64,000 bases of DNA, taken from positions 1,922,001 through 1,986,000 of the forward strand of contig NZ_JAZDDH010000001.1 of the NCBI RefSeq assembly GCF_037081715.1, in the 5' to 3' direction. A model generated the notes under the pieces. The model did not search any database and was not told the DNA's origin. It worked only from the letters and a program-made list of their open reading frames with translations. The translations under genes and the position numbers were made by a program. Of this stretch, positions 28,349-28,932 are shown in pieces. Source of the stretch: Halalkalicoccus sp. CG83. Its GTDB lineage: Archaea; Halobacteriota; Halobacteria; Halobacteriales; Halalkalicoccaceae. Position 1 is the stretch's first letter, and each line of letters starts with the position of its first letter.

Positions 28349-28363
28349 ATGGGGTCGGAGGGA
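28349..28363. repeat. tRNA-Trp 3' end, inner copy of the 15-base direct repeat
   Basis: Identical to 27214-27228 in the same orientation. It covers the discriminator-proximal 13 bases of tRNA-Trp plus two flanking bases. See the finding on the tRNA-Trp-linked remnant. Confidence 0.6.
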
Positions 28364-28604
28364 TTTGAACCCCCGATCGACTGATATCTCCGGTCACGCC
28401 TCGGTACTCCAGAGGGTCGTCAACGCGGCCGATGATCAGTCGGCCGCTCGGTATATCAGTCTGGAGTATCGTCACCGAGCGTGTACACCGGCAGCCGACC
28501 GTCGTCGGACGGGTCGCAGTACGGTCAGCGACCCCGTTCGACGGGCGCGGCCGACGGTGTATACCTCTGGAGTCAGTCGCCATTCCGGGCTTGGCCACGA
28601 CCCC
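28351..28604 (-). tRNA. tRNA-Trp (CCA), intron-containing
   Basis: Exon 1 (28604-28567, 38 nt) starts GGGGTCGTGGCCAAGC and carries the anticodon stem ACTGA and loop with CCA. Exon 2 (28385-28351, 35 nt) starts ATCAGT, completing the stem, continues with the T-arm (GGGGGTTCAAATCCCTC) and ends with CGACCCC, which pairs perfectly with the 5' GGGGTCG. The mature tRNA would be 73 nt; CCA is not encoded. The intron sits after position 37, the site known for haloarchaeal tRNA-Trp. The acceptor end doubles as a presumed integration site, as a 15-base copy lies about 1.1 kb downstream. Confidence 0.95.
28386..28566 (-). ncRNA. tRNA-Trp intron with box C/D methylation guide
   Basis: A 181-nt intron. 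C-box-like GTGACGA (28475-28469) is followed by a guide (28461-28452) and the D'-like CCGA (28451-28448); the fifth base before D' pairs with U39 of the pre-tRNA. C'-like GTTGACGA (28424-28417) is followed by the guide CCTCTGGAGTA (28415-28405) and D-like CCGA (28404-28401); the fifth base before D pairs with C34. These are the two known targets (Cm34, Um39) of the Haloferax intron. An additional hairpin domain (28484-28561: TACACCG/CGGTGTA base stem, GGGTCGC/GCGACCC tip) makes this intron larger than the roughly 100-nt introns I know. Confidence 0.88.
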
Positions 28605-28650: not shown

Positions 28651-28896
28651 CTACTCGCGGTCGGTCTCGTACCAATCGCACTCCTGGCACTTGCGTCCGG
28701 TTACGAACTCAGTGACGCTCGGCATGTAGCCCACCTCGAGGACGTCTCCGCCGCAGTCGGGACACTCCCGGTCGGCGTCCTCGATTCCGTCGGTCTCCAT
28801 CACCTCGCCGTCGCCTCCTTTTTCGGCCTCCTCGATGATCTCGGCGAGTCCCTGCGGATTCACCATTCGTCCCTGGACGACGCGGTTCTGATCCAT
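28651..28896 (-). CDS. Small zinc-ribbon protein, probably DUF5795
   Basis: An 81-residue protein. A helical start (MVNPQGLAEIIEEAEKGGDG) precedes a four-cysteine ribbon, ECPDCGGDVLEVGYMP...GRKCQECDWYETD (two Cys-X2-Cys knuckles). I recall this as the haloarchaeal DUF5795 family; function unknown. The ATG at 28896 (MDQNRVVQGR) is preferred to the frame start at 28920. It lies between tRNA-Trp and the DUF5794-like membrane gene, on the same strand as both. Confidence 0.75.
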   Translation of the reverse strand: MDQNRVVQGRMVNPQGLAEIIEEAEKGGDGEVMETDGIEDADRECPDCGGDVLEVGYMPSVTEFVTGRKCQECDWYETDRE

Positions 28897-28932
28897 GTCC
28901 GGTGACGGTCCGCCGACCACAAAAAGACCGCG

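Follow-up and report, generated by a model that had tools for sequence, protein, structure and literature searches.

An enlarged tRNATrp intron in Halalkalicoccus pairs a predicted self-guiding C/D core with a lineage-specific hairpin arm

In Haloferax volcanii, the tRNATrp intron is 103 nt long and is a dual box C/D guide for Cm34 and Um39 (PMC2584109, PMC7714728), and its guide pairings require the unspliced precursor (PMC2584109). In the archaea examined so far, tRNATrp introns leave as circles (PMC12558985, PMC7714728, PMC9014305). H. volcanii is viable without this intron, according to Joardar 2008 as cited in PMC7714728, and the intron therefore tolerates change. For archaeal tRNA introns in general, a 2014 review gives a size range of 11-129 nt (PMC4090602). 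We analyzed a stretch of 64,000 nucleotides from Halalkalicoccus sp. CG83, hereafter the window, which carries a tRNATrp(CCA) gene whose intron resembles that of H. volcanii in its location at position 37/38, its BHB, its C/D and C′/D′ boxes, its guide targets and its occurrence in a single gene. It differs from the H. volcanii intron in being 181 nt long and in bearing an additional arm at a three-way junction of the BHB inner helix and the C/D stem.

The gene occupies positions 28604-28350 on the minus strand, as do all the elements described below. Exon 1 (28567-28604; GGGGTCGTGGCC...GACTGACTCCAG) ends in ...CUCCAG at position 37 and was assigned from its sequence, its pattern being unique in the genome; exon 2 (28350-28385; ATCAGTCG...GACCCCA) runs from position 38 to the discriminator base. 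Between them lies the 181-nt intron (28386-28566), as the preliminary description had placed it. A search with the exon 1 pattern, allowing up to three mismatches, recovered this gene as the sole tRNATrp of the genome, so the gene is needed. Neither ARAGORN nor the Rfam tRNA model detected it, both yielding tRNALys alone in the window; the gene thus escapes routine annotation and, as a practical point, such a genome may appear to these tools to lack tRNATrp. We consider it very unlikely that the long intron results from misassembly or from decay of the tRNA gene: the 78-nt form of the arm does occur in one genome only, but the gene is the only one for tRNATrp, its exons and all boxes are perfect, and a 24-nt form of the arm is present in five other genomes. 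On the same strand, a small zinc-ribbon-like open reading frame (CPDC...CQEC; window 28651-28920) ends approximately 47 nt upstream of the tRNATrp gene, and this upstream flank is common to the window species and its congeners.

Within the intron, the boxes follow the order C, D′, C′, D, as in other haloarchaeal tRNATrp introns that act as C/D guides. Box C (GUGACGA, 28469-28475) is followed by guide 1 (GACUGAUAUA, 28452-28461), which addresses U39, and box D′ (CCGA, 28448-28451); box C′ (UUGACGA, 28417-28423) is followed by guide 2 (CUCUGGAGUA, 28405-28414), which addresses C34, and box D (CCGA, 28401-28404). Guide 1 forms nine continuous base pairs with the intron end and exon 2 across the 3′ splice site, and guide 2 forms ten with the end of exon 1 and the intron start across the 5′ splice site; in each case the nucleotide at +5 lies opposite the target, in agreement with the earlier proposal that two self-guides preceding CCGA boxes select U39 and C34. 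Because both pairings span splice sites, the unspliced precursor is required. The motif ACUCCAG 3′ of box C (28468-28405) is conserved in all relatives beyond what guiding needs. Its sequence complements that of guide 2 (CUGGAGU), which can accordingly pair either within the intron or with the exon; judged from these complementarities, the alternative pairing is a possible switch.

Folding of the precursor returned an intact BHB at position 37/38, with 3-nt bulges and a 4-bp central helix CUCC/GGAG. The 3′ end of the intron (28386-28394) comprises the AU of the 3′ bulge (28386-28387), the strand GGAG (28388-28391), which pairs with CUCC of exon 1, and the 3′ strand ACC of the inner helix h′ (28392-28394), which pairs with its 5′ strand GGU (28563-28565) at a probability of 0.82-0.87. 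In the predicted fold, the central helix has a pair probability of 0.99 and the anticodon stem of 0.98-1.0. The C/D terminal stem is formed by CACGC (28479-28483) and GCGUG (28395-28399).

To place the CCGA boxes in context, we compared them across haloarchaeal tRNATrp introns. Box D reads CCGA in 117 of 118 introns, and box D′ reads CCGA in 68, CTGA in 39, and CAGA or CGGA in 11 of the 118. Hence both boxes of the window intron do read CCGA, as initially reported, but the suggestion that this is unusual does not hold. Almost all of these introns have GACGA as box C. At C′/D′, the second base of D′ and the fifth base of C′ were C with C in 58 introns and U with U in 32, the other 28 being discordant or different; at C/D, the corresponding bases were C with C in 117 of 118. 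The C′/D′ pattern looks as though C-C had replaced the U-U pair of the K-turn. In addition, the base preceding GA of box C was linked to the base preceding D (G/U in 60 introns, U/A in 44, and the swapped combinations in only 8), a linkage compatible with formation of a helix CGG(U/G):(A/U)CCG, an alternative to the K-turn in which the D box would be concealed.

The additional arm is a 78-nt hairpin (28484-28561) with a basal 7-bp stem, UACACCG/CGGUGUA, and a distal portion of 64 nt that is private to the species. It is predicted to branch off where the inner splice helix (GGU/ACC) meets the C/D terminal stem (CACGC/GCGUG), forming a three-way junction. Its computed folding energy was -47.4 kcal/mol, compared with -34.1 ± 3.3 in shuffled sequences (z = -4.0), and none of 200 shuffles matched it, which bears out the claim that this segment folds on itself; the whole 181-nt intron gave a z-score of -4.6 against shuffles. 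As the distal 64 nt are known from one sequence, their fold rests on energy and not on covariation. Removing 28484-28561 in silico left 103 nt, as had been calculated before, with the probabilities of the central splice helix and the anticodon stem unchanged. The arm is thus a folding module of its own, specific to a taxon and leaving the core undisturbed, as an expansion segment would be; we use that term by analogy, since the RNA is not ribosomal.

Given that the 78-nt hairpin overlaps an ACA at its 3′ end (GUGUACACG), we considered whether an H/ACA-like pseudouridylation guide had been fused to the C/D guide. From base to tip, the unpaired positions of the arm are bulges of 1-2 nt only, leaving no internal loop of the size of a pseudouridylation pocket; the GA half of a K-loop is missing from the apical loop, and the short arms of the congeners have no room for a pocket and no ACA after them (GUGUACGCG). 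For want of a pocket-sized internal loop we rejected an H/ACA domain, which we regard as extremely unlikely.

Comparison with six other Halalkalicoccus genomes showed that the arm has shorter counterparts. Four of these genomes carry introns of 128 nt, G391 one of 130 nt and G225 one of 105 nt. A 24-nt hairpin, consisting of 10 bp and a UACG loop, is located at the insertion point of the window arm in five of the six, and the same three-way junction is predicted for the window and these five congeners; G225 has no arm and retains all other helices. The 24-nt arm has the same seven basal pairs in the same place as the window arm, whose distal part is longer, and approximately 54 nt of extra length are private to the window species. 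The presence of a short arm at the same site therefore indicates that the 78-nt domain is an enlarged feature of the genus and not a new insertion. The preliminary description was thus right that the domain is extra and without a counterpart in most haloarchaea; its notion of a single discrete insertion has to be given up. The absence of the arm in G225 could be either a loss or the sign of a late gain. Trees of aEF-2 alone, and of aEF-2 together with the tRNA flank and 23S, did not resolve the branching within Halalkalicoccus; a tree of a 15-kb block was well supported but mirrored differing gene content upstream of aEF-2 and was discarded.

The 24-nt arm is fully paired (10/10) in each of the five genomes, and both bases of several pairs have changed, among them A-U/G-C/C-G and C-G/G-C exchanges. 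In G391, the stem differs from the others at nearly every pair and is still fully paired, with the UACG loop kept; only 4 of 20,000 permutations of the G391 arm reached 10/10 pairs. Pairs were scored along the stem in a gap-free register, used because MAFFT misplaced G391, and the register of G391 against the others is structural, being set by the loop. Compensatory changes, whose absence would have spoken against the preliminary description, are therefore found in the genus-level stem of the 24-nt arm, to which this comparison applies.

Clean boundaries and a long inverted repeat would also be expected of a hairpin element, mobile or dispersed, that had entered the intron. No second copy of the arm was found in its own genome or in the six congeners, the next best match having an E value of 0.04 over 20 nt; searches of phages gave no match, and in plasmids the sole match was the core intron of a Natrinema megaplasmid, which did not cover the arm. 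Moreover, the base of the arm is common to the congeners, so the site was occupied beforehand, which argues against a mobile insertion. A dispersed-element origin was rejected, there being no second copy in the genome, congeners, plasmids or phages, and we hold a mobile origin to be very improbable.

Next, we determined how widespread such enlargement is among haloarchaea. Among 119 distinct introns from approximately 90 haloarchaeal genera, 110 were 96-109 nt long, so the domain is not shared by most haloarchaeal tRNATrp introns; at 181 nt, the window intron falls outside this range, which is typical of these introns and does not define them. The exon pattern matched 346 of 391 Halobacteria genomes. 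Using two gap patterns, and after setting aside two chance hits, we detected an enlarged 5′ part in 8/391 genomes, five of Halalkalicoccus and three of genus g66, a count that could miss some enlarged introns because the patterns need exact anchors. Groups of family f3 without an exon match, sampled through five loci, all had introns of 103-107 nt. In this sample, enlargement was thus rare and confined to Halalkalicoccus and g66, the latter, a genus of f3, being the only case outside family f1.

Intron lengths in g66 are graded (109, 146, 158 or 195 nt), the longer introns having one or two modules of two hairpins before box C. The enlarged g66 introns (L024, L026, L027, L200 and L201; 146-195 nt) are expanded in the same 5′ linker as the window intron, with the core unchanged; they differ in carrying several short hairpins in modules beside box C, unrelated in sequence, whereas the window intron has a single arm. 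Since these modules resemble the Halalkalicoccus arm neither in sequence nor in architecture, the same linker was probably expanded independently at least twice, which makes it a likely hot spot of expansion. Two g66 species genomes, G276 and G402, have identical tRNATrp coordinates and introns (C1:3563259) and may therefore share a chromosome record or derive from a mixed assembly. The 181-nt and 195-nt introns exceed the longest length of 129 nt reported in PMC4090602 and extend the size range of archaeal tRNA introns beyond 11-129 nt. None of the papers retrieved in our literature search describes the arm.

Halalkalicoccus also has an expansion in another RNA, a 108-nt expansion segment of 5S rRNA reported in every species of Halococcus and Halalkalicoccus (Stepanov and Fox 2021, PMC7812874). 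This segment is visible in the window genome, whose 5S rRNA measures approximately 229 nt (L186); in G256, the sister genus, the 5S segment is absent and the tRNATrp arm is absent too. The segment and the arm are alike in being lineage-specific, helix-forming inserts that leave a conserved core intact in the same genus. They differ in the RNA that carries them, and their local similarity score was equalled by 221/500 shuffles; homology of the arm to the 5S expansion segment was rejected, there being no sequence similarity. The Rfam 5S model aligned the Halalkalicoccus 5S genes (L186-L191) end to end over 114-119 nt and in this way places their 3′ end wrongly.

Collectively, our findings make it likely that the window carries a standard haloarchaeal self-guiding tRNATrp intron with a tolerated structural expansion arm. 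Judging from the sequence, guiding, splicing and circularization would still work. The precursor would fold and L7Ae, Nop5 and fibrillarin would load onto the C/D core; U39 and C34 of the same precursor would be 2′-O-methylated before excision; and EndA would cut at the BHB bulges, the intron leaving as a circle. The arm would point away from the core and ride along, with the splice motif, the C/D and C′/D′ boxes and the guides unaffected. On this account, a short 24-nt arm present in most of the genus would have been elongated to 78 nt in the window species, and we infer that selection maintains the folding of the arm, which would have no specific target itself.

That the arm has instead gained a specific function, as a protein-binding site, as protection of the circular intron or as a second regulatory RNA released with it, strikes us as unlikely. 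A hairpin is present in six of the seven genomes, with compensatory change in the 24-nt arms, and the window arm folds strongly; such pairing in a hairpin of imperfect symmetry could reflect selection for function. Haloarchaeal tRNATrp introns are also retained as circular RNAs (PMC12558985, PMC7714728), and a domain added to them would travel on a stable RNA. However, the loops of the short arms have nothing conserved beyond UACG, which the window arm does not carry at its tip; G225, one of the congeners, has no arm, and the stem sequence is nearly free to change.

The introns form a natural series, with no arm, 24 nt and 78 nt in Halalkalicoccus and total lengths of 109, 146, 158 and 195 nt in the second genus, which shows where a methylation-guiding tRNA intron can enlarge while keeping its core. 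A bolder reading, which we consider unlikely, is that the linker is a hot spot for the repeated expansion of selected, structured domains and that the Halalkalicoccus arm is functional on the circular intron RNA. If this were true, the arm and the 5S segment together would mark a lineage in which RNA expansion is unusually permissive or actively used.
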